The translations under genes were made by a program, and so were the position numbers. Under the pieces are notes generated by a model. It saw nothing but the letters and a program-made list of their open reading frames with translations, had not been told where the DNA came from and made no database searches. Source: Ophiura sarsii (taxonomy: Eukaryota; Echinodermata; Ophiuroidea; Amphilepidida; Ophiuridae). From it: a stretch of 64,000 bases of DNA. Below, piece by piece: positions 1,408 through 44,740 of this stretch. Numbering within the stretch: position 1 is the first letter of the stretch; every line of letters starts with the position of its first letter. Location of the stretch: NCBI GenBank assembly GCA_035610835.1, contig CM069449.1, forward strand, positions 6,656,542 to 6,720,541, given 5' to 3'.

Positions 1408-1806
1408 GTACCTCGAGAATAGAAGAGTAGGCCTATTACATAACCCTTAGGTAGAGCCCAAAGTTATCTGCTTTGTAAAGTTCAAATTCTGCTTTGTAAA
1501 TTCAACTTGCACCTGGGCTTGTGCCTTCTTCAATTTTCAATTGAGCTAAACACACTTGCACCCAGGATAAGCATTTCTTTTAATTTTGAGTATTTAGACC
1601 AAGGCATAACGTGGCATAATATAATAACATCATCAAATCATCAAATTGTTTATCATCACTGCACCGCATAGCAGCCCTCAGCGTTTATCCCATACTACAA
1701 AATATATAATTTATAGGGGTTTTTCTTTTGTTCAGATCCAGTGAGTTAACTATGAACGCTGCAAAAAGTGTATGTTACAAAAAAAACCAGCCATATAATA
1801 ATGATA

Positions 1807-1880
1807 TGGTTGGATGAGGAATTGAACCCGGGATTCCTGCGTGGAAGCGCTAGAGCGTGGCCACTACACTACACTAGACT
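1807..1880 (-). repeat. tRNA-like SINE head
   Basis: Read on the minus strand this has an A-box-like TAGTGTAGTGG and a B box GGTTCAATTCC at tRNA-like spacing, with a loop containing TTCC reminiscent of glycine tRNA. The acceptor ends do not pair cleanly, so it is a tRNA-derived retroposon or pseudogene rather than a working tRNA. No poly(A) tail or target duplication is obvious. Confidence 0.55.
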
Positions 1881-2425
1881 AACTGTTTTGGCATAGTCGT
1901 TGATAAAGATATATTAAGTATGGAGTGATTCAAGCATTACATGTCGTACGCGTTGATGATCCCCATACTTATTTCAAAATTAAAACAATGAATCGATTAG
2001 CATTTTAAACAATGACAAATAAAATTGTTCATAATAGGACTCCGTGTACAATTACGTGACTTCGTTTTCGCGCTGATTTTATTAGACTGATGTAAGTCTG
2101 TTATAACTGTATTGTACCGAACTATTAAAAGAGTAAGACTAATTACCTCTTTTGGATTACGCACAGAAACAGTCATACACTTTATACACTAAGTTTCAAG
2201 CGGGCCACTGCAACGTAGTCTAATTTAACTGGATTGACCTGGCGGTTTTTGAGGGCGTCCCAGCCCATATCAGTTTGACTTTCAAAAAGAGTGACCCCTC
2301 CTTAGTTAATTTCTCTATGTCAATATCACTGCTATCATTTCATTTCAGCAGTAATCAGTGGATGATCATCCAGTAATGCACTTATCAATTGCATTTACTG
2401 CAAAGTGCAAGCCTGGCCCACCACA

Positions 2426-3117
2426 GACAAGACGTTCAAACCCGGCTGAACGTCCCTTTCTTATAACAATAGATTCTATACAGACCAACAACCATTTGTT
2501 GTCAGACAATGCACACACTTCCACTTCAATACTCTCTAGCACACCAATCATCTAAAACACTTGTTCATTTGAGATAAAAATACTACAATTCATAGAATTT
2601 CGTGTAAAAATGTTGTTTAAACGACAATAACTATTCAAGAAATTGTTAATTTGAAATAATTCCAACGCCAATGTTTTGAAGAACACTTTGCTTTACCGCA
2701 TAAAAACATGTACATCACGATAGTAAAATCGGAAATGTATAATTTCAGCTGAGACGAATATACCTATATTCGTCTCAGATTTCAGTGAAATAACAAAAAA
2801 AGAAAACACAATTTTTATTGTTACTGTTGATAAATAGTTTTATTTAAAAAACAATTTAGAATAGAGGGCGGCTCGCTTTGACACTTAATCGGATCCTGCC
2901 ATTTCTGATAACGGTGATGATTTATCGATCACGCTAGTATCAATATAACAATATCACGTGATCACTATTGAAACATCGCGTGTGCCAGTAGCATTAAGTG
3001 GTTGAGATTATAACGATTTCAGAGACGCCAGACAATGGTGACAACAAATGATTGTTGGTCTGTATAGAATCTATTGTTATAACAAAGCGACGTTCAGCCG
3101 GGTTTGAACGTCTTGTC
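2426..3117. mobile_element. Inverted-repeat element with ~85-bp arms
   Basis: Positions 2426-2512 and 3035-3117 are reverse complements with few mismatches; both contain AGACGTTCAAACCCGGCTGA and a run ending in ATAGATTCTATACAGACC. About 520 bp of AT-rich, non-coding sequence separates the arms. This is the structure of a non-autonomous DNA transposon, but I could not find a target duplication. Confidence 0.6.
2750..2777. repeat. 28-bp perfect palindrome
   Basis: TGAGACGAATATA and TATATTCGTCTCA form a 13-bp perfect stem with a 2-nt CC centre. It sits between the arms of the 2426-3117 inverted-repeat element. Confidence 0.75.
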
Positions 3118-4390
3118 ACCACAGGGACCCGGGACATGGCAGGGACTGTACGCGAATGTACAATAAACGATGCCTGGCTATGCGGGGGAGTGTATGGGGG
3201 ACCAGTGTCCGAATTAATAACAGGGAATCTACATGCACTGGTGCATGCAGAGTCAAATTTCTACATGCACAGCATCAAAGTTACATGCAGGCTCATGCAC
3301 CAAATTTCCTGGACTGTGTACAAAAACATAAATGATAAAGTAACAGTAAAACAACTAAGGCTGGGCGCGAGTCCCGGGAAATCGAGTCCCGCCCGAAAAT
3401 GTCGGGTCCCGGGAACCAGAATCACCTTCCCGAATCCCCCCCCCAAAAAAAAAAAATAAAAAAAATAAATAAAAAAAATAAGCTTACTTAAAAAAACATG
3501 TGGTCGGGTAATTCATGATTATTTGATGCAAATGTATAGCGGAGATGTATTTGAAATAGATTTATTTAGTCAAATCTGTGGATTTTTTTTACTCCTATGC
3601 TCGCAAAATGTGATTTTCACTTCATTATCCGCCGCGCTGCGCGTCGCCGGCCATCTTTAAACTTTGATTGACAGATCGAGTTTGTTATTGTTATAGTGCC
3701 ATCTATTGACGAAATTGTGTAATTTTTCGTAAGGATTTGCCGATCGTTCCAACTCAATTGGATAGTTAATTATATTAATTTACTAAATTTGAATTTTGAA
3801 CGGAATTTTTTCTTTTTCTTTCTTTTTTCCTTATGATATCCCGAATTATTATATGAGCAGTATCCCGATCTGCCGATCATTTACAGTGTTGCTTCTTGAT
3901 TAAGCTTAGCCTTAGGCCTACATGCACAGTGTGCATGCAGCATAGAAAAGTTACATGCACTAGCAAAAAACTACATGCACCGGTGCATGCGTGCACCCGA
4001 CTATTTCGAACACTGGGGGACGTACAAACTGTGCCCCCGCTAATCGGGACGTGTAGCGGGGATGTACGCTAGGGTACACAAATGTAGACCCTGGGCGTAG
4101 CTACATACAAAGCTATACATAAGCTAGAAATGTGATGCGCTTGACGGAATAAGCCTAATAACACATAGGGAACACATAGAAATGCATCCCGTTATGGTTG
4201 CAGAAAGAAATTAAGCGACCCGCAGACTGTAGCCGGGGCGTACACTTTGTCCTGACTAAGGGTGACCGGGACTGTACACTTTGTCCCGGCTAAGGAGGGC
4301 AGGGACGTACAAAAAATGGTGCCCCGCCCTGCGGGGACCGTACATGAATGTACCAGGGATGTCATATTTGCAATTTGTGCATCCCGGCCC
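3118..4390. repeat. GC-rich composite repeat block with TGCATGC and GTACA motifs
   Basis: The word CTACATGCAC and its inverse recur at 3228-3302 and 3917-4018. A GGGAC..TGTACACTTTGTCC..GGCTAAGG unit occurs twice in tandem at about 4236-4305, and GGGAC-GTACATGAATGTA-like words mark both ends of the block. A C-run and an A-run follow at 3438-3480. The outer ends (CAGGGACCCGGGA at left, reverse complement CAGGGCCGGGATG at right) would suit a hAT-like element, but no 8-bp duplication is present. Long open frames here are chance. Confidence 0.45.
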
Positions 4391-4655
4391 TGATGAGAGA
4401 TAACGTATAAGTCAAGAGTGCGCTCTCAATTTTTCTGGAAATCAATTTGTTGGTATAATACTTTAGGCATATAATATTTTATAACACCTTGAAATGTCCT
4501 TGTCATTTGATTGGTGGATTCTTTGTCACATGACATCAACTATTTGGAAGTTCATACTTGGACCACTGGATACTCATGCTTCACGCTCACAATGTTATAA
4601 AAACGGGATAACAATTAATATTATAAAAATTAACCATTCGCGACCCGGGGGAAAT

Positions 4656-11101: not shown

Positions 11102-12948
11102 TTAATAATAATAATAATAATACTTAATATAGCGCCCAACACAAGAAAAGGCCTCTAAGCGCTTTACACAGTAAAATCTTAAAAACTACAACTAAAAAGC
11201 CTAAAATTGTACCATATTAAACAATGACCAATAGTAAAACATTTATAAAAAGATATTGCATAATTATTATGATTGCATACAATTATAAGTGATAAAACAC
11301 CATTATTAAAAACAAGGTCCATAGTACTGATATAAATCTAAAAACACCAACAATTTAAAAGCACAGGATTAAAAGTCCAACACGCACTTATTCCATAAAA
11401 ACGCAATTACATGGGGTTATTAAAAAGATGTGTCTTAAGATAGAGCCGCTTAAACGTGGCAAGGGTGTTGGCATTTCTGATCTCTGCAGAAAGTTTGTTC
11501 CACAAAGTTGGGGCAGCGACGGAAAAAGCCCTATTGCCATAGTATAATGTTGACACCTCGCGACTGGGTGGAAGTGAGAGGAGAAGTTGTGAACTTGATC
11601 GAAGAGTGCGCTTTGGGACGTAGGTAGTGATAAGTTCAGAAAGGTAGGATGGAGCCATACCGTGGATTGCCTTGAATGTGATAAGAAGAAGCTTGAATAT
11701 TATGCGATCCTTAATGGGTAACCAGTGTAGCTCACGACGAAGTGAAGTAATGCTACAGTCCTTCTTTGCACCAGTTACTAAGCGAAGAGCGCTATTTTGT
11801 ACACGTTGGAGTTTTGCAAGCGTAGTGGCAGGAAGACCGTAGAGCAAACTATTATTGGCGTCCAGACGGGAGGTGACGAAAGCATGCGTAAGAGTTTCTG
11901 CTGTTTTTCTGTCGATGAATTTGCGTATTTGCCCTATCTTGTGAATGGCAAAATATGCAGAGCGACATACGTTGTTCACGTGCGTAGTCAAAGTCATATG
12001 CTTGTCCATAACAACTCTCAAATTGCGTGCCTCGTCAACAATATTTACTTCCGACTGCCCAATTGTCAAAGATAAGATGGAAGAGATGTCTTTCGAGAAA
12101 TGTGACGTCATGTGCACAACTTCTGTTTTGGAATCATTTAACAGAAGCCGATTAGCCGCAGTCCATTGCTTTATATCGCGGACACATTCTTCAATCTTTT
12201 CCAAATCCTTGGCTCTATCCGACTTATCAAAAGAAAGATACACCTGCGTGTCGTCAGCGTAGATCATCTTGTTAACACTATGTTCTGAGATAACATCCTC
12301 TAAAGGAGCAGCGTAGATTGTAAAATTAAAGGGGCCACTGACCGATCCCTGTGGAACACCACATTGCAAATGATGATTCTTTGACAAGCTCTTACCGATT
12401 GCAACGCATTGCTTCCGGTCATGGAGGTAACTCTCAAACCACTGCAGAACATCACCGCAAATACCATATCGATCCCTCAGTCGCCTCAGAAGAATATGAT
12501 GGTCAACCATGTCGAAGGCGGCCGAGAGATCAAGCAACACAAGAATAGTTTCCTTCCGATGATCTAGCGTACGAAGGACGTCATTGTGGACTCGAAGTAA
12601 TGCACTTTCAGTAGAATGGTTCTTCCTGTACGCAGATTGCACCTTTCCGTAAAGTCTATTATCTTGCATATACTCCTGCAACTGTGACATTGCTACGCGT
12701 TCGACAACCTTGGACAGAAATTTCAAGTTTGATATTGGTCTATAGTTGTTAAGATCTTCAGGATCTTTACCAATCTTCTTGATCAAAGGTGTCACGCGTG
12801 CAAGTTTGTATGAAGATGGAAACGATCCTGATAGCAAGGAGGAGTTCACGATTCTGGTGATTGCTGGCAGAAGTTCCTCAAGGCATTCCTTGAGTAGCCA
12901 TGTCGGGATGCAATCTGAATGACACGAAGTAACTTGTACAATGACCAT
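11102..12948 (-). mobile_element. 5'-truncated CR1/L2-group LINE
   Basis: The element reads on the minus strand. An intact reverse-transcriptase frame (12948 to 11407) is followed by a ~280-bp 3' untranslated region containing AGCGCTTTACACAG-type sequence in inverse, and ends in an (ATT)n run at 11103-11122, the usual non-poly(A) tail of this group. The 5' side stops just before the conserved start of the reverse-transcriptase domain, so the endonuclease region is missing, as expected from incomplete reverse transcription. The open frame argues for a recent insertion. No target duplication was resolved. Confidence 0.9.
11407..12948 (-). CDS. LINE ORF2 fragment: reverse transcriptase plus C-terminal region
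   Basis: This 513-codon frame is the 3' part of a non-LTR retrotransposon polyprotein, which copies the element's RNA into DNA at a nicked target. Visible motifs in order: NYRPISNL (68-75), a SAYRKNHSTESAL block (105-117), LLDLSAAFD with catalytic Asp near 140, GVPQGS (197-202) and YADD (230-233), followed by the thumb region and a typical end near FKRLYLKTHLF. All catalytic aspartates are present and there is no internal stop. The annotated start is only the first start codon in the open frame; the true upstream part (endonuclease) is lost by truncation, so this copy should not be autonomous. Confidence 0.9.
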   Translation of the reverse strand: MVIVQVTSCHSDCIPTWLLKECLEELLPAITRIVNSSLLSGSFPSSYKLARVTPLIKKIGKDPEDLNNYRPISNLKFLSKVVERVAMSQLQEYMQDNRLYGKVQSAYRKNHSTESALLRVHNDVLRTLDHRKETILVLLDLSAAFDMVDHHILLRRLRDRYGICGDVLQWFESYLHDRKQCVAIGKSLSKNHHLQCGVPQGSVSGPFNFTIYAAPLEDVISEHSVNKMIYADDTQVYLSFDKSDRAKDLEKIEECVRDIKQWTAANRLLLNDSKTEVVHMTSHFSKDISSILSLTIGQSEVNIVDEARNLRVVMDKHMTLTTHVNNVCRSAYFAIHKIGQIRKFIDRKTAETLTHAFVTSRLDANNSLLYGLPATTLAKLQRVQNSALRLVTGAKKDCSITSLRRELHWLPIKDRIIFKLLLITFKAIHGMAPSYLSELITTYVPKRTLRSSSQLLLSLPPSREVSTLYYGNRAFSVAAPTLWNKLSAEIRNANTLATFKRLYLKTHLFNNPM

Positions 12949-34337: not shown

Positions 34338-34525
34338 CAGCCCTCAAATTAACCGAAGGCACCGAAGGCAAATGCCGTCGGTGCCCCACCTAGTTGCCTC
34401 GATGCCCTCAATTTCTGGCTGTTTTTACTCCATTGAAAAGTACATAATTGCCTTGGATAAAGTTGGTGCCCCTTTCAAATTGCCTGAAATTGCCATGCCC
34501 TTTCCATTTCTTAATTTGAGGGCTG
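34338..34525. mobile_element. 188-bp hAT-type MITE with perfect 8-bp duplication
   Basis: CAGCCCTCAAATTAA (34338-34352) is exactly inverted at 34511-34525. GTGCCACC occurs immediately outside both ends (34330-34337 and 34526-34533). An 8-bp duplication and CAG...CTG termini are diagnostic of the hAT superfamily. The interior repeats GGCACCGAAGGCA and GTGCC words and encodes nothing. Confidence 0.92.
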
Positions 34526-34912
34526 GTGCCACCTCGCTCATGCTATGGGGCTTGCTGATGCAAGTTTCTGGTTTGCGTATAGGGGCAAAAACTAGTGCTA
34601 ACTGTGAGTAGCACAGAAGAAATCTGACTTGTTGAGACTTGGGGCTTTTTAAAGTTGGTTTGCATTTGCACAGTGTATAAATCACCGTAAATTATTATGT
34701 TTTAGACAACTTTTTTTCTCTCCTTAGACTGTATAATAACCCCGTTATTATCTAATGACTCTTGCAGCACAATCAAGTAACTGTACTCTGTCGCCACTGA
34801 AATTCAATAACTTCCTTAATAGGAAATGATGTGGAAATACTAGCATAGACCAAGGCATTACATACACTATTAAACTGATTTTATCTCATTTTGTACTTCT
34901 GAGAGTCTAGCT

Positions 34913-35189
34913 ACAATCTCGGCCAATATTGTTGGAACACTTTTATACGTGTGTTTAAAAACTCCCCCTCTCCCCCTGGATCAATGTTGAAACATGATTT
35001 TTGGGTTACGGGATACTGGGAAGGGCCAACATTGCCCAGTGGGGAGGGGGGAGTTATTAATGTTTAGGAAAGGCTTTAAGCCTTCCGTCAAAGACAGCAA
35101 TGTTTTGATAGTGTACATTTTGCGCAAACGGGAACGCACGAAAGGGTAATTATTACATGGATGTTCCAACTAATTATGGCCGCGATTGT
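34913..35189. mobile_element. Array element M, copy 1 (277 bp)
   Basis: ACAATCTCGGCCAATATTG..GTTGGAACA at left; the reverse complement of the right end reads ACAATCGCGGCCATAATTAG..TTGGAACA, giving ~28-bp imperfect termini. A GGAAAGGCTTTAAGCCTTCC palindrome sits inside. CT borders both ends. Non-coding; superfamily unknown. Confidence 0.85.
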
Positions 35190-35653
35190 CTGAATCATCT
35201 GTTAAAAAAATCATCTGTTTTAAGGGTTTTGGGCATAACTTTTGATTCAATAAAGCTTTCTTTACCAGATTTGGAGGATAGATAGGTTATGTTATTGGTC
35301 ACGTGGCCAACTACTTAAAAAGGTCATGCTTCAACTTATTGTTAGGGATAGGTCACTTTTAATTACAGAGGTATATTTGGCACACTAAATGCCCAATAAA
35401 TTATGGATGTTGCCAGTTATTTAAATGTAAATGGTTTCTCGATCACATATACCAACAGCTAAACATGATGGAACACACTCTCGTCGCTTACGCGACTTCT
35501 GCGTCATTCAAAATGGATTACATAACCAGGAAGGGGAAGGGGCGCTATCGTCGTTTGAAGACTATCAACAAGTTAAATTAATTGTTATATGGTATTTTTA
35601 AAAATCTACGGGGGAAATGGATATTATTTAAAAATAAAATATCGAAACATAGT

Positions 35654-35742
35654 CCGGTGCCAGGCTCGAACTTAGAACATTTGGTTTGAAAGCATGAAAG
35701 CAACGCAACAACAGCGCGCTTAACCACTACACCACGGATGAG
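35654..35742 (-). repeat. tRNA-like relic in spacer 1
   Basis: Minus strand: A box TGGTGTAGTGG (35724-35734) and B box GTTCGAGCC (35663-35671), with TTAAGCGCGCTG following the A box. The interval is longer than in a standard tRNA, so a SINE head or pseudogene is likelier. Identical copies lie at 38670-38758 and, interrupted, in spacer 3. Confidence 0.6.
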
Positions 35743-36153
35743 ACCATACCACGGAACAGCGTTTTAAAAGCTATCAGGACAATTATAGACATAATCGATA
35801 TGGTCAGTCGTTATTGTTAATGCACTGTATATAGTTCAATTTGACAACGTATTTGGATAGGCCATAACAGTAATCCATGGGATATTTTCAATCAGGAGTC
35901 CAAAATATTACGGGAATGTCGAGTTTCAACAGTATGCCATCATTTTCAGATAAAAGTCTTTGACCTAATTTTCTTTTAATTATCATGGCTTACTGTGGCT
36001 TCAATCGATTTTGCGTGTCGTGTGTTGGCATACTGTGGCATACTGTGAATAGACTCGACATGCACACACAGTTCCAGAATTACATTGTAACCTGTTATAT
36101 CTATGATTTGTTGACACGAGATTGCATATCATTTTACTGCGAGCGACGCTTAA

Positions 36154-37038
36154 GGTAGCTAACTCGGCTCCTACACCACTACAGAAAAACTGCTGTAATA
36201 CCAAATCAATTATATTTACACTCTTTATACTGCGACCACAGTAAAGATAAGTCTTTCCTCTACCTATTTCAGGACTTTCGGATCATTTTTGAAATTTCTT
36301 ATGTTTTTCTTTATTTTTTGAAAATTCCCTAAATTTTCACCTTCTGGAATTTCTGTAGACTAAGCGAAAAGTGCTATGGCCATGAAACTTTGGGAATAAA
36401 TTTATAAGCATATTACCTAAATTCTCTCGTGAGTTTTTGCAAATACAGTGTTTACTTTTTGAAAAAAATATTTTTTTCAATTTTGATTTTAGGGAAATTT
36501 TCAAAAGGCTGTAAAAAGTTCTAGAAACACTTAATTAGTAAAAACTCACGAGATAACTTTCTAAACTTAATTACCTTTAATATGACACCTTGTTTGTGCA
36601 AATTGAACAAGTAGTTTTTTCTGCAGAAATTCACAAAGTTTGGCAATATAGTGTTTCTAGAAAATAGTGAAAAAGTACTAACATTCCCAGTGAATAAACC
36701 ATCAATCACCACTCAGTTGTTGAGGAGAAAAAAATTGTGTGATACCTTGGTGTTTTGGCATCAAAATAAAATAAAAGTCTTTAGCATACATTGATTTTAA
36801 AGAAGAGAAAAAAATATTGACAAAACTATGTGTTTTCTGAAATTTGGCAGTATTTGGGAATTCGGCTACGCCTCCTGTATTAAGTCAATGGGTTTTCAAA
36901 TAACGAAAAATTCCGTAAATCAAAAACGGATTTTTGGAAAAAATTCAAACTTGGCATATCATCTTTTCTCATCAATATACACATCCTCTGTTATTTTGAA
37001 GCAAATCATTGCCGGTCACCGTAGCCGAGTTAGCCACC
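36154..37038. mobile_element. 885-bp TTAA-flanked element (Kolobok-like or piggyBac-like)
   Basis: GGTAGCTAACTCGGCT opens it and the inverse of GGTGGCTAACTCGGCT closes it. TTAA lies on both sides (36150-36153, 37039-37042), while spacers 2 and 3 have the uninterrupted GACGCTTAATATG. GG-starting termini after TTAA fit Kolobok better than piggyBac, which normally starts CC; a TA-flanked reading with AGGT termini cannot be excluded. The interior has A/T-rich hairpins (CTCGTGAGTTTTT and its inverse, 36426-36556) and no transposase. Confidence 0.88.
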
Positions 37039-37348
37039 TTAATATGTATCTCTGTGTAAAGCTCGGGATGGGGGGGGGGGGGGGGGGGGGGCGGTATGTT
37101 TTACTATGCATTATAACGCAAGGAGGTATACCAATATTGATGTTTATGGTTGACATGTCAATAAAAGAGAGCTACGAGTTTCTTTTTAAATAAAATCATA
37201 ACAAGTCCTGTGTGTTTTACATATTGTATTAGTCTACCGACTATGATTTTCACATGCTTCACAATTTTGTGAAAATGTGGAATGTCGTCTGCAGACGACT
37301 GCCGCGTGGAAAGTGTTAAAAAGAGCTTCATGAATATGTACACTTAGG

Positions 37349-37381
37349 TTTATTTATTTGTTTGTTTGTTTGTTTGTTTGT

Positions 37382-37447
<66 letters not shown>
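37349..37447. repeat. TTTG/TTTA tetranucleotide repeat
   Basis: Five to six TTTG units followed by about 19 TTTA units. Repeated in the other spacers at 39476-39574 and 42702-42790, with small length differences. Confidence 0.9.
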
Positions 37448-37449
<2 letters not shown>

Positions 37450-37928
37450 AACAAGAAATAAGTCGATTGTTAAAATTGCGTGAAGTTTGTTGAAAAAATA
37501 GAACAAATTCATATAGATAATCACTGCTTTCCAATTTGACATTAGACCTAAACTATCTAATTCCGATTCTAATGTGACCGTTTCTCCAAATAAATTAAAC
37601 ATAAAATGTTTAAATTGATAGTATGAACAGTGGGCATAATACTATTATCACATTCTGCTAATTTTACAGCGATCTGATAAATAGTTCTGGACATAAAGTG
37701 AATCCATATGACCATTTTATGAACAAAAATACACCAGAAATAGACCTTATATCTAAATAAAAGTGACCGTTCCCTAAAACCGTTAATGAAAAGATCAAAT
37801 TTTGTCATTCACTTTTATCTTTGGTATGTAGGCAAAATGATCTCCAAGTATCAATCAAATCGAGTTAGCCGTTACGAAAATACAATGATTTAAACTAATC
37901 GAAAACTTTACATTTGTCACTCGAGGAG

Positions 37929-38205
37929 ACAATCTCGGCCAATATTGTTGGAACACTTTTATACGTGTGTTTAAAAACTCCCCCTCTCCCCCTGGATCAA
38001 TGTTGAAACATGATTTTTGGGTTACGGGATACTGGGAAGGGCCAACATTGCCCAGTGGGGAGGGGGGAGTTATTAATGTTTAGGAAAGGCTTTAAGCCTT
38101 CCGTCAAAGACAGCAATGTTTTGATAGTGTACATTTTGCGCAAACGGGAACGCACGAAAGGGTAATTATTACATGGATGTTCCAACTAATTATGGCCGCG
38201 ATTGT
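37929..38205. mobile_element. Array element M, copy 2
   Basis: Same 277-bp element. It is bordered AG on the left and CT on the right, a mixture of the borders of copies 4 and 1, as expected if it arose by crossing-over between them. Confidence 0.85.
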
Positions 38206-39508
38206 CTGAATCATCTGTTAAAAAAATCATCTGTTTTAAGGGTTTTGGGCATAACTTTTGATTCAATAAAGCTTTCTTTACCAGATTTGGAGGATAGATA
38301 GGTTATGTTATTGGTCACGTGGCCAACTACTTAAAAAGGTCATGCTTCAACTTATTGTTAGGGATAGGTCACTTTTAATTACAGAGGTATATTTGGCACA
38401 CTAAATGCCCAATAAATTATGGATGTTGCCAGTTATTTAAATGTAAATGGTTTCTCGATCACATATACCAACAGCTAAACATGATGGAACACACTCTCGT
38501 CGCTTACGCGACTTCTGCGTCATTCAAAATGGATTACATAACCAGGAAGGGGAAGGGGCGCTATCGTCGTTTGAAGACTATCAACAAGTTAAATTAATTG
38601 TTATATGGTATTTTTAAAAATCTACGGGGGAAATGGATATTATTTAAAAATAAAATATCGAAACATAGTCCGGTGCCAGGCTCGAACTTAGAACATTTGG
38701 TTTGAAAGCATGAAAGCAACGCAACAACAGCGCGCTTAACCACTACACCACGGATGAGACCATACCACGGAACAGCGTTTTAAAAGCTATCAGGACAATT
38801 ATAGACATAATCGATATGGTCAGTCGTTATTGTTAATGCACTGTATATAGTTCAATTTGACAACGTATTTGGATAGGCCATAACAGTAATCCATGGGATA
38901 TTTTCAATCAGGAGTCCAAAATATTACGGGAATGTCGAGTTTCAACAGTATGCCATCATTTTCAGATAAAAGTCTTTGACCTAATTTTCTTTTAATTATC
39001 ATGGCTTACTGTGGCTTCAATCGATTTTGCGTGTCGTGTGTTGGCATACTGTGGCATACTGTGAATAGACTCGACATGCACACACAGTTCCAGAATTACA
39101 TTGTAACCTGTTATATCTATGATTTGTTGACACGAGATTGCATATCATTTTACTGCGAGCGACGCTTAATATGTATCTCTGTGTAAAGCTCGGGATGGGG
39201 GGGGGGGGGGGGGGGGGGCGGTATGTTTTACTATGCATTATAACGCAAGGAGGTATACCAATATTGATGTTTATGGTTGACATGTCAATAAAAGAGAGCT
39301 ACGAGTTTCTTTTTAAATAAAATCATAACAAGTCCTGTGTGTTTTACATATTGTATTAGTCTACCGACTATGATTTTCACATGCTTCACAATTTTGTGAA
39401 AATGTGGAATGTCGTCTGCAGACGACTGCCGCGTGGAAAGTGTTAAAAAGAGCTTCATGAATATGTACACTTAGGTTTATTTATTTGTTTGTTTGTTTGT
39501 TTGTTTGT

Positions 39509-39576
<68 letters not shown>

Positions 39577-40055
39577 AACAAGAAATAAGTCGATTGTTAA
39601 AATTGCGTGAAGTTTGTTGAAAAAATAGAACAAATTCATATAGATAATCACTGCTTTCCAATTTGACATTAGACCTAAACTATCTAATTCCGATTCTAAT
39701 GTGACCGTTTCTCCAAATAAATTAAACATAAAATGTTTAAATTGATAGTATGAACAGTGGGCATAATACTATTATCACATTCTGCTAATTTTACAGCGAT
39801 CTGATAAATAGTTCTGGACATAAAGTGAATCCATATGACCATTTTATGAACAAAAATACACCAGAAATAGACCTTATATCTAAATAAAAGTGACCGTTCC
39901 CTAAAACCGTTAATGAAAAGATCAAATTTTGTCATTCACTTTTATCTTTGGTATGTAGGCAAAATGATCTCCAAGTATCAATCAAATCGAGTTAGCCGTT
40001 ACGAAAATACAATGATTTAAACTAATCGAAAACTTTACATTTGTCACTCGAGGAG
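38206..40055. repeat. Array spacer 2, uninterrupted
   Basis: 1850 bp without either TTAA insertion; it supplies the empty site for both (38735-area GCGCTTAACC and 39165-area GACGCTTAATATG). The tRNA-like relic is at 38670-38758 (minus), the poly(G) run at ~39197-39218. Confidence 0.88.
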
Positions 40056-40332
40056 ACAATCTCGGCCAATATTGTTGGAACACTTTTATACGTGTGTTTA
40101 AAAACTCCCCCTCTCCCCCTGGATCAATGTTGAAACATGATTTTTGGGTTACGGGATACTGGGAAGGGCCAACATTGCCCAGTGGGGAGGGGGGAGTTAT
40201 TAATGTTTAGGAAAGGCTTTAAGCCTTCCGTCAAAGACAGCAATGTTTTGATAGTGTACATTTTGCGCAAACGGGAACGCACGAAAGGGTAATTATTACA
40301 TGGATGTTCCAACTAATTATGGCCGCGATTGT
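40056..40332. mobile_element. Array element M, copy 3
   Basis: Same 277-bp element with AG/CT borders like copy 2. Confidence 0.85.
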
Positions 40333-40863
40333 CTGAATCATCTGTTAAAAAAATCATCTGTTTTAAGGGTTTTGGGCATAACTTTTGATTCAATAAAGCT
40401 TTCTTTACCAGATTTGGAGGATAGATAGGTTATGTTATTGGTCACGTGGCCAACTACTTAAAAAGGTCATGCTTCAACTTATTGTTAGGGATAGGTCACT
40501 TTTAATTACAGAGGTATATTTGGCACACTAAATGCCCAATAAATTATGGATGTTGCCAGTTATTTAAATGTAAATGGTTTCTCGATCACATATACCAACA
40601 GCTAAACATGATGGAACACACTCTCGTCGCTTACGCGACTTCTGCGTCATTCAAAATGGATTACATAACCAGGAAGGGGAAGGGGCGCTATCGTCGTTTG
40701 AAGACTATCAACAAGTTAAATTAATTGTTATATGGTATTTTTAAAAATCTACGGGGGAAATGGATATTTAAAAATAAAATATCGAAACATAGTCCGGTGC
40801 CAGGCTCGAACTTAGAACATTTGGTTTGAAAGCATGAAAGCAACGCAACAACAGCGCGCTTAA

Positions 40864-41959
40864 GGGAAGTGTCAACCCTATTATTTTGATGATCAACTTT
40901 TGCTTCTAAGTTTGAGAATATTTAATAAAAGTACATAAAAGTATACATTTATAGAAAGGAAATTTGATAAGGAATCTGATGGTGATATCAATGTGATACC
41001 AAATAAACTCAATTTTGAGAAATGAACCAAAAAGCGCTTTTTTTACCCCAAATTTTTCAGACAGCATAACTATAAAATAAAAAATGGTAATTTGTTCTAA
41101 TATACATTTTTGTAAACAAAACAATTTTGTCTAGGAGGCAATTTTTTCTTTTTTTAAAATAAGGCTTAGTTTTGGAAATATTGATAAAAACATCGGAAAA
41201 GGGTAAAAGTCGTGTTTTTTTGCATACTTTTCGCTAGAAATGGATGCATATCTCGAGTTTAAAATCCTTAATCGAAAAAATAAAAAATTGCCTCCTAGCG
41301 CTGAAAGTCCTCTACGCAATGGTAGTAAATGCTTACCCGATAGTTTGATATATTTTTAGTTATGTTGTCTGAAAATTCGTAAAATTCCTTCAAATTTGAA
41401 CTTCTAGAAAACATCGATTTAGTAAAAAAATTGACCTTTTTCACCATTTAAAGCTAAATATTCTCGGAATACACGGGCGTGTGACCTAAAAGGCGAGTAT
41501 ACTATTATGAACAATCAAAATAAACTATCAGATTCAATTTATATTGTCATAATGTGAAGAAATTGGAAGAAAACTGAAATTTAAATGATCGTAAGATTGG
41601 CCTTTGTTTACATTTTTAGGCATTGTTTTGCGCTCTTTTGTTTTCGCGTCTTCGTCGCGGATACTAAGCGGCGCGTCTAGTATTACGCGCGGGAAGATTC
41701 AGCGCGCGACGCAATGATCGAACAGCTGTCGCAGCATTTGAAAAGCGCGGAACTCCGCTTAATTTCCCGCCAAATAAACATGCCCCTTTTCCTGACTCAA
41801 ACTTACCAAAATAACAATTTTAAATCACCCAAAAGAACGGGAAATAATCGCATCCGATTAGTAACTTATGATGGTAATGATAGAATACATATAAAAGTAT
41901 AAAATAATAGAGAAATATGAAATTCAATTTGTGAAACAAGTGCCGGGTTGACACTGCCC
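40864..41959. mobile_element. 1096-bp TTAA-flanked element
   Basis: GGGAAGTGTCAACCC opens it and the inverse of GGGCAGTGTCAACCC closes it, with TTAA on both sides (40860-40863, 41960-41963). The other spacers have one TTAA at the same place. Its ends differ from those of the 36154-37038 element, so it is a separate family. It has a GC-rich, CGCG-dense patch near 41640-41755 and an internal inverted repeat at 41132-41300. No transposase. Kolobok-like is the best guess from TTAA plus GGG termini. Confidence 0.88.
41132..41300. repeat. Inverted repeat inside the 1096-bp element
   Basis: CTAGGAGGCAATTTTTT at the left is inverted at the right. It may be a nested MITE; no target duplication is clear. 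Confidence 0.6.
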
Positions 41960-42731
41960 TTAACCACTACACCACGGATGAGACCATACCACGGAACAGC
42001 GTTTTAAAAGCTATCAGGACAATTATAGACATAATCGATATGGTCAGTCGTTATTGTTAATGCACTGTATATAGTTCAATTTGACAACGTATTTGGATAG
42101 GCCATAACAGTAATCCATGGGATATTTTCAATCAGGAGTCCAAAATATTACGGGAATGTCGAGTTTCAACAGTATGCCATCATTTTCAGATAAAAGTCTT
42201 TGACCTAATTTTCTTTTAATTATCATGGCTTACTGTGGCTTCAATCGATTTTGCGTGTCGTGTGTTGGCATACTGTGGCATACTGTGAATAGACTCGACA
42301 TGCACACACAGTTCCAGAATTACATTGTAACCTGTTATATCTATGATTTGTTGACACGAGATTGCATATCATTTTACTGCGAGCGACGCTTAATATGTAT
42401 CTCTGTGTAAAGCTCGGGATGGGGGGGGGGGGGGGGGGGGGCGGTATGTTTTACTATGCATTATAACGCAAGGAGGTATACCAATATTGATGTTTATGGT
42501 TGACATGTCAATAAAAGAGAGCTACGAGTTTCTTTTTAAATAAAATCATAACAAGTCCTGTGTGTTTTACATATTGTATTAGTCTACCGACTATGATTTT
42601 CACATGCTTCACAATTTTGTGAAAATGTGGAATGTCGTCTGCAGACGACTGCCGCGTGGAAAGTGTTAAAAAGAGCTTCATGAATATGTACACTTAGGTT
42701 TATTTATTTGTTTGTTTGTTTGTTTGTTTGT

Positions 42732-42791
<60 letters not shown>

Positions 42792-43270
42792 AACAAGAAA
42801 TAAGTCGATTGTTAAAATTGCGTGAAGTTTGTTGAAAAAATAGAACAAATTCATATAGATAATCACTGCTTTCCAATTTGACATTAGACCTAAACTATCT
42901 AATTCCGATTCTAATGTGACCGTTTCTCCAAATAAATTAAACATAAAATGTTTAAATTGATAGTATGAACAGTGGGCATAATACTATTATCACATTCTGC
43001 TAATTTTACAGCGATCTGATAAATAGTTCTGGACATAAAGTGAATCCATATGACCATTTTATGAACAAAAATACACCAGAAATAGACCTTATATCTAAAT
43101 AAAAGTGACCGTTCCCTAAAACCGTTAATGAAAAGATCAAATTTTGTCATTCACTTTTATCTTTGGTATGTAGGCAAAATGATCTCCAAGTATCAATCAA
43201 ATCGAGTTAGCCGTTACGAAAATACAATGATTTAAACTAATCGAAAACTTTACATTTGTCACTCGAGGAG

Positions 43271-43547
43271 ACAATCTCGGCCAATATTGTTGGAACACTT
43301 TTATACGTGTGTTTAAAAACTCCCCCTCTCCCCCTGGATCAATGTTGAAACATGATTTTTGGGTTACGGGATACTGGGAAGGGCCAACATTGCCCAGTGG
43401 GGAGGGGGGAGTTATTAATGTTTAGGAAAGGCTTTAAGCCTTCCGTCAAAGACAGCAATGTTTTGATAGTGTACATTTTGCGCAAACGGGAACGCACGAA
43501 AGGGTAATTATTACATGGATGTTCCAACTAATTATGGCCGCGATTGT
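43271..43547. mobile_element. Array element M, copy 4
   Basis: Last copy; ends GCGATTGT and is followed by unique sequence AGTTTTACC. Bordered AG on both sides. Confidence 0.85.
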
Positions 43548-43685
43548 AGTTTTACCATAGGCCTTGAACTAGAAAACAACTTGATTTTACCAAGGATTTT
43601 CTTTGATTTTACAGAAACTTTGTGAATTGCCAAATTTTTCTATTTTTAACATATCTTAAATCTGTGCGCCCTCTTGCGTCATCAT

Positions 43686-43901
43686 CAGGGCTGTAAAAAG
43701 AGGGCAAAACAGCAAGCTCCTTCCAAGAAATGTTGCCATCTCGTGGGAAACATCCAAAAATATGGGACCATATGGCATCAATTGGACCTTAATTTTCTAA
43801 AAAGCTTCTGAGGGGGGACACCCCTCCGCCGCTAAAGCAGCGGGAAATCCAACTTCGTCGAATTTCCCTTGCCGGGAAACTTTGCATTTATTCTAGCCCT
43901 G
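43686..43901. mobile_element. 216-bp hAT-type MITE
   Basis: Opens CAGGGCTGTAAAAAG and closes with the inverse of CAGGGCTAGAATAAATGC. The flanking 8-mers GTCATCAT and GTCGTCAT match at seven of eight positions. The right half (..GGGAAACTTTGCAT..) recurs inverted at 53170-53275, where only that half survives. Confidence 0.82.
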
Positions 43902-44740
43902 GTCGTCATCGTGGAAGGCTTTATTCAGCGCTAGCAATCGTGCGGTAACAATGAAGATTGTGGGATGTTAACATTTTGTTCATTTTGTACCGTATGATTA
44001 GTGATATTTTAACGGACGATAAACATTTGTTTTTCGGACACTTTTCTAGTTTGAACCGGGAAAGTTGGGGCCTGTTTACTTGATTTTGAGTATCGACATT
44101 GCGATGTTATTTCACCCCGAGTCGCGCTATGTATCAAAAATTGGGTGGAGTTTGCGGTGTGATCATGCTATCAACAGTTTTCAGGTGCTTTTCTTGGGAT
44201 TTGGCGTGCATTTTAGTGAAATTGTGTTTTTTTCCAGGGCTTAGTTATAAAGCAAGTGTAAACCTCACAGTGCCATTATTCATTTGAAACCTGGACACCC
44301 ACTACAATTCATATGAACCTCCCTCCCTGTTTAGTGTCATACCATGGTTATACTAAGTCCACCCAGAATACTATGGTTCACCTATCACCAGTGACAGCTA
44401 TCACTGACCAAAATTAGACTTGACCCAAGCCCAAATATTCTGCCGCACACTTTGTTTGGATAAAATCAGTGTTTGTGTTTAAATATTTTATAAATTTTGG
44501 ATCTTTTAAAAAGCGTAACCCTTTGGGCGTGGTTTTAGGAATAATACCACTAGGAGGAAACTAAAGGAGCCACATTTATTTAGGAAAACCTGAATTTACT
44601 GATGGTAATTAAACCTGAGTCGCTAGTGTGGGAATTTGAGCAAACATCTACAGGGTTATGTGCAGTGGCATTTGCCCTGTTGTCTAAGAAAGCACATAAG
44701 GCAGCAGAGGTAGGGGGAGTGCACTATCAATGCAACATAG
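43902..44740. other. Unassigned sequence
   Basis: No supported exon or bounded element; frames at 44099-44287 and 44602-44814 show no recognisable domain. Confidence 0.4.

Follow-up and report, generated by a model that had tools for sequence, protein, structure and literature searches.

According to the accessible part of the paper by Kojima and Bao (2022, Mob DNA 13:24, PMC9587614), long terminal direct repeats (LTDRs) set KolobokP apart from all other DNA transposons. The element is organized as LTDR-INT-LTDR, the LTDRs have their own TIRs, and solo LTDRs occur. Also reported there are multimers of the form (LTDR-INT)n-LTDR, usually flanked by target duplications, and INT-INT junctions, which were attributed to LTDR excision. 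The autonomous form encodes a Kolobok DDD/E transposase and a His-Me nuclease, and the endonuclease was proposed as the driver of multimer formation, while the non-autonomous families in oyster are 1.7-3.3 kb in length. A literature search by title and abstract, with subscription papers and preprints outside its scope, found no long terminal direct repeats in DNA transposons besides those of KolobokP and no description of KolobokP beyond this paper.

In the brittle star Ophiura sarsii, I found arrays of the form M-(S-M)n, in which a 277-bp element M alternates with a spacer S. Their layout is that of KolobokP, including Ms with their own TIRs at both ends of M-S-M, solo Ms, multimers, and S-S junctions. 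On the other hand, target, termini, and repeat length differ, and the arrays appear to be a second case of a known layout. Within the accessible part of the KolobokP paper, the LTDR is given as about 450 or 660 bp in length, compared with the 277 bp of M, and the KolobokP termini are 5′-RR..YY-3′, while those of M are ACAATC..GATTGT, or CAATC..GATTG without the target TA. KolobokP makes 3-4-bp or 4-5-bp target duplications without strong preference, while 38 of 39 arrays here lie in C-TA-G and only one has a 3-5-bp duplication (of 4 bp). The INT-INT junctions of KolobokP have 3-4-bp deletions, while the junctions here mostly carry a CATG scar, in arrays of up to 56 kb.

Other systems share single features with these arrays, as far as the accessible parts of the respective papers go. 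Sleeping Beauty donor concatemers in transgenic frogs (PMC3271037) are Tc1/mariner tandem arrays with plasmid parts, from which single transposons were remobilised to TA; however, they are laboratory-made and entered the genome in a non-canonical way, while whole arrays lie at TA here. The translocatable units and composite transposons of IS26 (PMC9587614) likewise have direct repeats of a mobile element around passenger DNA and a possible circle stage, but they are bacterial with the transposase inside the IS, while the present element is eukaryotic and non-autonomous. The MITE-borne tandem repeats Xstir and miDNA4 (PMC12628747) also tie a MITE to tandem arrays of variable copy number. In those cases, a single MITE is the source of the repeat or contains it, whereas here each repeat holds a whole MITE unless it has been excised, and the array ends in a MITE.

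The array was first seen in the window, which is the whole stretch of 64,000 nucleotides that was analyzed. M1 (34913..35189) is the left end of the array and M4 (43271..43547) the right end, with M2 (37929..38205) and M3 (40056..40332) as internal copies, all on the plus strand. The left target flank CT (34911..34912) reads CTA with the A of M1, and the right target flank AG (43548..43549) reads TAG with the last T of M4; TA is the duplicated target. The borders are CT/CT for M1, AG/CT for M2 and M3 (GAG and CTG in the case of M2), and AG/AG for M4. The four Ms are identical across 277 bp (4/4), and the limits of the array are exact M termini on both sides. M has imperfect inverted termini of about 27 bp (24 of 28 positions matching, E 2e-4), and a second, inner inverted repeat, also imperfect, lies at its positions 43-148 (68%, E 2e-7). 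In these points, the preliminary description, which had reported four copies of a 277-bp inverted-repeat element alternating with three spacers and had given the borders and the exact ends of the array, was correct. Its spacer length of about 1.85 kb holds for S2 (38206..40055, plus strand), a clean, non-coding spacer of 1850 bp, but not for S1 (35190..37928, plus strand; 2.74 kb) and S3 (40333..43270, plus strand; 2.94 kb), which are longer because each holds a TTAA-flanked insert. The S1 insert (36150..37042) is 893 bp and the S3 insert (40860..41963) 1104 bp in length, TTAAs included; their TIRs are GGTRGCTAACTCGGCT and GGGMAGTGTCAACCC, respectively, and neither insert is present in the other two spacers. 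Without the inserts, S1-S3 show no substitution and three indels of 3, 1, and 8 nt, the latter two falling within a run of poly-G and a run of ATTT, respectively. The copies are recent, as had been proposed, and the identity among the M and S copies is beyond chance. The longest ORF starting with ATG in the doubled M+S unit has 88 aa. There is also a purine run ahead of the right M.

Is this arrangement limited to one locus? M right ends were found at 1081 places genome-wide (at most 2 mismatches). Terminal right ends (exact, with a next base other than C) number 244, with A as the next base in 98 of the 100 listed, and terminal left ends (with a preceding base other than G) number 257, with T as the preceding base in 97 of the 100 listed. 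Nowhere in the genome is an exact M right end followed by C and then a non-T base, as would be the case for an alternative spacer, and viral contigs have no exact match to the M end. Pairing was done with 100 of the 257 left termini and 91 of the 244 right termini, the listings being the first 100 places each, hence on contigs C1-C8, and the right ones used being the 91 of 100 up to C7:33.2 Mb. The resulting 72 pairs comprise 30 solo Ms, 3 partial copies, 17 copies of about n=1, and 22 longer arrays of up to 56 kb, where n was assigned from the pair length only; one pair of 5.3 kb, for example, holds an insert and has n=1. The window array and two others were read from end to end. M-(S-M)n is a dispersed mobile element, not a one-locus curiosity. 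Both M alone and M-spacer-M, the basic block of the preliminary description, are present at many loci beyond the window.

The flanks of 39 other arrays (at least 2 kb) have CT at the left in 38 and AG at the right in all 39, with TA on both sides in 38. Except for one repeat of 4 bp, no direct repeats of 2-8 bp lie outside ACAATC..GATTGT in these arrays. Among the solo Ms read, 10 of 11 have CTA..TAG. TA is missing on the left of one solo (L040) and of one array (C3:84044520), and these two count against the explanation favored below. At C1:95623903, where the M haplotype is 66A, 124T, 180C, joining the flanks gives a sequence that agrees with neighboring copies of a tandem repeat at 159 of 160 bases, CTAG being intact, which is a clear empty site. 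Two further comparisons are weaker, since the relative has CTTA at the site in one, and in the other a gap of 9 bases falls there in the best relative. From the TA at both ends and these empty sites, the arrays appear to be single insertions into C-TA-G. Duplication of TA and duplication-free insertion at CT^AG would give the same insertions, and TA is favored because the scars described next are CATG.

S-S junctions lacking M were found at 127 places. Among the 100 listed, the scar is CATG in 87, AATG in 9, CATT in 2, and CAT in 2. The 55.9-kb array at C2:11.45 Mb holds at least 10 such junctions among those listed. It is known, from the accessible parts of the respective papers, that Tc1/mariner enzymes make their cuts at the 3′ ends and two to three nucleotides inward of the 5′ ends, with TA as the target (PMC2170065), and that Tc1/mariner footprints are 2-4 bp (PMC7913693). 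M was lost from arrays and CA+TG stayed behind, the scar of a Tc1/mariner-type cut. The TA target, the short TIRs, and the short footprint of outer TIR bases all resemble those of Tc1/mariner (IS630) elements and their MITEs, while the terminal direct-repeat layout and the mobile tandem arrays differ, and no transposase was found here. The TA sites and CATG scars suggest that the layout, the solos, and the multimers can arise outside KolobokP.

Taken together, M-(S-M)n is probably a Tc1/mariner-type DNA transposon that is non-autonomous and LTR-like, in which the transposase may use any two M ends, and repeat exchange or circles may alter n. M is best read as a TIR-bearing MITE (CAATC...GATTG) that also forms the terminal direct repeats of M-S-M and links the units of the multimers. 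A Tc1/mariner-type transposase encoded elsewhere would bring together a left and a right TIR from anywhere in an array. If the two ends of one M are paired, that M would be released; if the ends of different Ms are paired, M-S-M or a longer sub-array would be released and may reinsert at TA. The value of n may grow through unequal sister exchange or through copying or recombination of an M+S circle after its excision, and such repeat exchange may act both before and after M excision. One scar dimer was fully read as scar-S-M-S-scar, in an array built on the scar-bearing dimer, and the rare AATG scar is repeated 7 times at C3:81.99 Mb.

Within arrays, units differ by 0-2 substitutions per 2 kb, while arrays of one subfamily differ by 5-12 (14 units, 5 arrays; the spacer alignment does not show the two substitutions scored for the third unit of the window, which probably stem from how the insert was aligned). 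The first and last Ms show on average 0.71 differences within a locus and 3.57 between loci at 35 loci; the test dropped four of the 39 loci (C2:96545257, C6:7691184, C4:28471540, and C5:13792763), in which one of the two ends has an interruption, a truncation, or a poor alignment. Private variants common to both end Ms number 16, at 11 of the 35 loci, including 4 among the 16 loci whose length is that of n=1. The near-identical units and the private variants common to the outermost Ms look as if there was one template per array. Unit length is also uniform inside an array and different between arrays (8 arrays on C1; permutation 0/5000; single Ms, two one-spacing loci, and the outlying M at C1:19639895 were left out, and the C1:78.1 Mb array extends past the matches listed and is thus incomplete). 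As the structure recurs at many loci and each of these eight arrays has its own unit length, a copy number that is purely an assembly artefact, as the preliminary description had considered, is unlikely.

A single template would also be expected if an extrachromosomal M+S circle or rolling-circle multimer joined TA via its M ends and made M-(S-M)n in one step, as in replicative cointegrates or the translocatable units of IS26. This possibility, to which I give a minor but real chance, would account for private variants being present at both ends also where the length is that of n=1, for the constant unit length of each array, and for scar dimers amplified as a block, as with the sevenfold AATG scar. 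However, cut-and-paste from a homogeneous array predicts identical patterns, no circle was observed, and cointegrates are not known from Tc1/mariner enzymes. If circles did come first, the element would be a eukaryotic Tc1/mariner-type counterpart of the bacterial translocatable units, its MITE and non-coding backbone moving together in circular form, and transposition itself, not later unequal crossing-over, would directly yield the arrays of tens of kilobases. In the favored cut-and-paste reading, the two ends of a new copy would have the same private variants because the donor array is homogeneous. The 22 variants private to one end only, at 10 loci, count against it.

Purely local amplification of one M-S-M through unequal crossing-over at the window locus, toward which the preliminary description had leaned, is improbable and is refuted as the whole story. 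The ladder of n and the repeats built on scar dimers fit exchange as a way for n to change, and it is likely a part of the story. Nevertheless, the independent C-TA-G insertions at many loci would be left unexplained. The alternative that the unit itself is mobile or a rolling-circle unit was partly right. M, M-S-M, and longer arrays occupy their own C-TA-G sites. Of the two observations that the preliminary description had named as refuting in combination, the first was made, the unit being dispersed with its own target duplications; M-only copies do exist, at independent sites. The earlier interpretation, based on one locus, is thus partly supported but incomplete. It is still more doubtful that an M+S circle recombined homologously into an existing solo M (model b1 in the accessible part of PMC9587614). 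Solo Ms at C-TA-G are frequent (30 of the 72 pairs), but chimeric ends would be expected, with old variants left of the crossover in the first M and right of it in the last, whereas the same private variant is found at both ends at 11 of the 35 loci. A non-autonomous LTR retrotransposon (TRIM) with M as the LTR, including TRIM-like tandem arrays, is hardly credible, since the direct terminal repeats, the solo copies, the neighbors with a common repeat, and the purine run would fit, but a 4-6-bp target duplication is expected (4 bp in 1 of 39 arrays, 5 or 6 bp in none) and TA in C-TA-G, the inverted termini of M, and the CATG scars stand against it.

The cut-and-paste reading would offer a route for satellite-like arrays of tens of kilobases to gain mobility, the excision scars inside them serving to mark time, and two parts are now separable for testing, namely the choice of ends by the transposase and repeat exchange. 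No transposase gene with M TIRs was found among the elements read, which counts against this reading, and no autonomous copy was found, S being non-coding and two oversized elements having been read. One of these (L157), with n=2 and with indels and a duplication in S, was rejected; its stop-to-stop ORFs of at least 100 aa are 105, 103, and 105 aa. The other (L158) was rejected as n=1 with a 2.9-kb insert, its ORFs on the same definition being 119 and 107 aa. Two further elements (L046 and L048) have only the right 86 bp or so in common with M and a different interior. The pattern from this interior occurs at 50 places, one of which (L151+L156) was rejected as an autonomous parent, since it lies in a composite repeat with reverse-transcriptase fragments and an M remnant inside.

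A tRNA-like stretch lies in S (38679..38750, minus strand), with an A-box word at 38740-38750 and a B-box word at 38679-38687. No tRNA was called in the window or in 7 copies, and no Rfam family matched 34500-44000 at the gathering score. The spacing of the two words is unchanged in copies from other subfamilies. The window also has a reverse transcriptase ORF; among the 120 matches listed for it, the named relatives belong to the coral Oculina patagonica and to the brittle star Amphiura filiformis, at 48-55% identity.

The M-S system, in which the 277-bp terminal-inverted-repeat (TIR) element M, a MITE, alternates with a ~1.85-kb spacer S as M-(S-M)n, is best read as a mobile, LTR-like MITE system of Tc1/mariner type and as a variant of the layout known from KolobokP, a DNA transposon lineage with long terminal direct repeats (LTDRs) around an internal region. 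The sequence itself shows insertion at a single site and excision that leaves a scar, a short residue at an S-S junction where M is missing; the enzyme, any circle and the route by which n grows are inferred. In the available part of its description (PMC9587614), KolobokP has the same LTDR-based layout, but the LTDR length, the terminal bases and the target place the M-S system outside that lineage. Sleeping Beauty concatemers in transgenic frogs, as described in the part of that report available (PMC3271037), are a laboratory analogue of the arrays.

The window array, M1-S1-M2-S2-M3-S3-M4, occupies 34913-43547. Its four M copies are identical across all 277 bp, and the alignment of S1, S2 and S3 shows no substitutions and only three indels (3, 1 and 8 nt). 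Two unrelated TTAA-flanked inserts with short TIRs lie in S1 (36150-37042; 893 bp including both TTAAs) and S3 (40860-41963; 1104 bp, likewise), each confined to its own unit and absent from the others. Thus, the inserts postdate the amplification, and no later exchange has carried them to other units. S is non-coding. It carries a 24-bp inverted repeat (88 percent; 35342-35365 and 37754-37777), 152 and 151 bp from its ends, and tRNA-like A-box and B-box words (38679-38750, minus strand) whose spacing (63) is conserved between S copies ~6.5 percent apart; no tRNA was called on this stretch. At another locus, L158, S contains a 2.9-kb insert (about 1675-4587 of the reverse complement) with the TIR GGCTCATTCCATGAAGTTGGGGC; the longest stop-to-stop ORF anywhere in L158 is 119 aa.

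M is dispersed. It was searched for, with one flanking base, in the genome that the window comes from (1.57 Gb in 748 contigs). All 40 matches scored, among 1237 candidates, were at 100 percent; they are located on contigs C1, C2, C3, C4, C5, C9, C10 and C12, many of them ~2.1 kb apart. The right end of M, allowing at most two mismatches, occurs at 1081 places. There are 244 exact right ends without a following C (next base A in 98 and G in 2 of the 100 listed) and 257 left ends without a preceding G (T precedes 97 of the 100 listed), while an exact right end followed by C and a non-T base occurs nowhere in the genome. Therefore, an intact right end adjoins either the target or the CT that starts S; no other spacer was seen after one. 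When 100 of the 257 left termini were matched with 91 of the 244 right termini on C1-C7, 72 pairs resulted: 30 solo Ms without S (267-294 bp), 3 partial copies (651-1915 bp), 17 pairs of about n=1 length (2.27-2.80 kb) and 22 of 4.3 to 55.9 kb. Length is only a rough guide to n, as one 5.3-kb pair is n=1 plus a 2.9-kb insert. The array at C1:42.25 Mb has 20 regular spacings of 2040-2045 bp, and the 55.9-kb array contains at least 10 junctions lacking M. At G000:C4:55640362-55717921, less than 80 kb holds five left termini, all on the same strand, and one right terminus among those listed; this may be a rearranged cluster.

Flanks were compared for 39 pairs of at least 2 kb. CT directly precedes the array in 38 of 39 and AG directly follows it in all 39, with weaker preferences for A at -4 (30/39) and for T three bases past the first right base (28/39). 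Judged from these sequences, the target of the arrays is the palindromic ANCTAGNT. TA is present on both sides of 38 of the 39 arrays, and outside ACAATC..GATTGT no direct repeats of 2-8 bp were found in them except one of 4 bp. Ten of 11 solo Ms read are bordered by CTA..TAG, the exception (L040) lacking the left TA. For C1:95623903, the joined flanks agree with neighbouring copies of the tandem repeat around it at 159 of 160 bases, and CTAG is unbroken. Weaker matches were obtained for C2:19745052 (127/141; the relative has CTTA at the site) and for the 21.8-kb array at C7:77690 (97/120 in the best relative, which shows a 9-base gap at the site; 83/108 in a second, which crosses the site without that gap). 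Together, the flanks, the TA and the empty-site matches make each of the 39 arrays look like a single insertion. The window array is bordered in the same way.

Each array looks built from one template. Among 14 units from five arrays, substitutions per 2 kb number 0-2 inside arrays and 5-12 when the four arrays belonging to one subfamily are compared with each other; from these four the window's subfamily differs by 127-135. The SD of unit length in eight C1 arrays is 0.7-13.5 bp within arrays versus 52 bp between them (permutation, 0 of 5000). At the 35 of 39 loci used, the outermost Ms differ at a mean of 0.71 positions within a locus versus 3.57 between loci and are identical at 23 (permutation, 0 of 10000 for the 24 loci of subfamily A and 23 of 10000 for the 11 of subfamily B). 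Both ends carry the same locus-private variants, 16 in all, at 11 loci, 4 of which are among the 16 of n=1 length; a further 22 private variants occur at one end only, at 10 loci. Such agreement between ends is what LTRs show at insertion. End-sharing alone does not separate copying of one circle, a piece cut from a homogeneous array, and conversion. It speaks against a circle recombined into an unrelated solo M, as the outermost Ms share private variants, and the variants common to both array ends likewise speak against a composite whose two Ms had long evolved apart.

S ends joined to S starts over 0-12 bases were found at 127 places. Between GAGGAGA and TC, the 100 junctions listed contain CATG (87), AATG (9), CATT (2) or CAT (2). 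CATG joins the outermost bases of M, CA and TG, and indicates that M was cut from arrays. The scar of Tc1 itself is TACATGTA; a literature search on that word returned no transposon paper containing it among the best 8 of 502 matches. According to the parts of two reports available, the targets of Tc1/mariner enzymes are TA sites, and cleavage falls at the 3′ ends and 2-3 bases inside the 5′ ends (PMC2170065); the footprints left are 2-4 bp long (PMC7913693). Scars and TA together place M with Tc1/mariner. No transposase for M was found. At G000:C16:52203548-52227124, one scar junction lies on the other strand from those around it, which may reflect an inversion inside an array.

Amplification continues after excision. 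At C11:70.68 Mb, 12 scars recur ~4.1 kb apart; the same interval separates 7 scars at C3:81.99 Mb, every one of the rare AATG type, and scars in stretches of C15 and C148. In C19 the interval is ~3.9 kb. Seven scars ~1.87 kb apart at C9:71.43 Mb fit S units without M. One C11 repeat reads scar, S (1918 bp), M, S (1913 bp), scar, its two S copies being 5 substitutions and 2 indels apart. Therefore, the repeat unit arose from a dimer in which one M had been lost; either of two processes, exchange inside arrays or the copying of a circular dimer, would suffice for its repetition.

Three of the 11 solo Ms read (L053, L064 and L067) show 17-21 differences to the majority and belong to another subfamily of M, which is found in none of the 39 arrays (Fisher p 0.008, small sample). 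M probably existed as a plain MITE before joining to S. The right 86 bp of M also occur with reverse-transcriptase fragments in a composite repeat (L046, L048 and L151+L156; C8:4858071-4863420), and the motif beside these 86 bp has 50 matches, of which 10 are exact. In the window, a 513-aa ORF with a reverse transcriptase domain (RVT_1) lies on the minus strand at 11407-12948.
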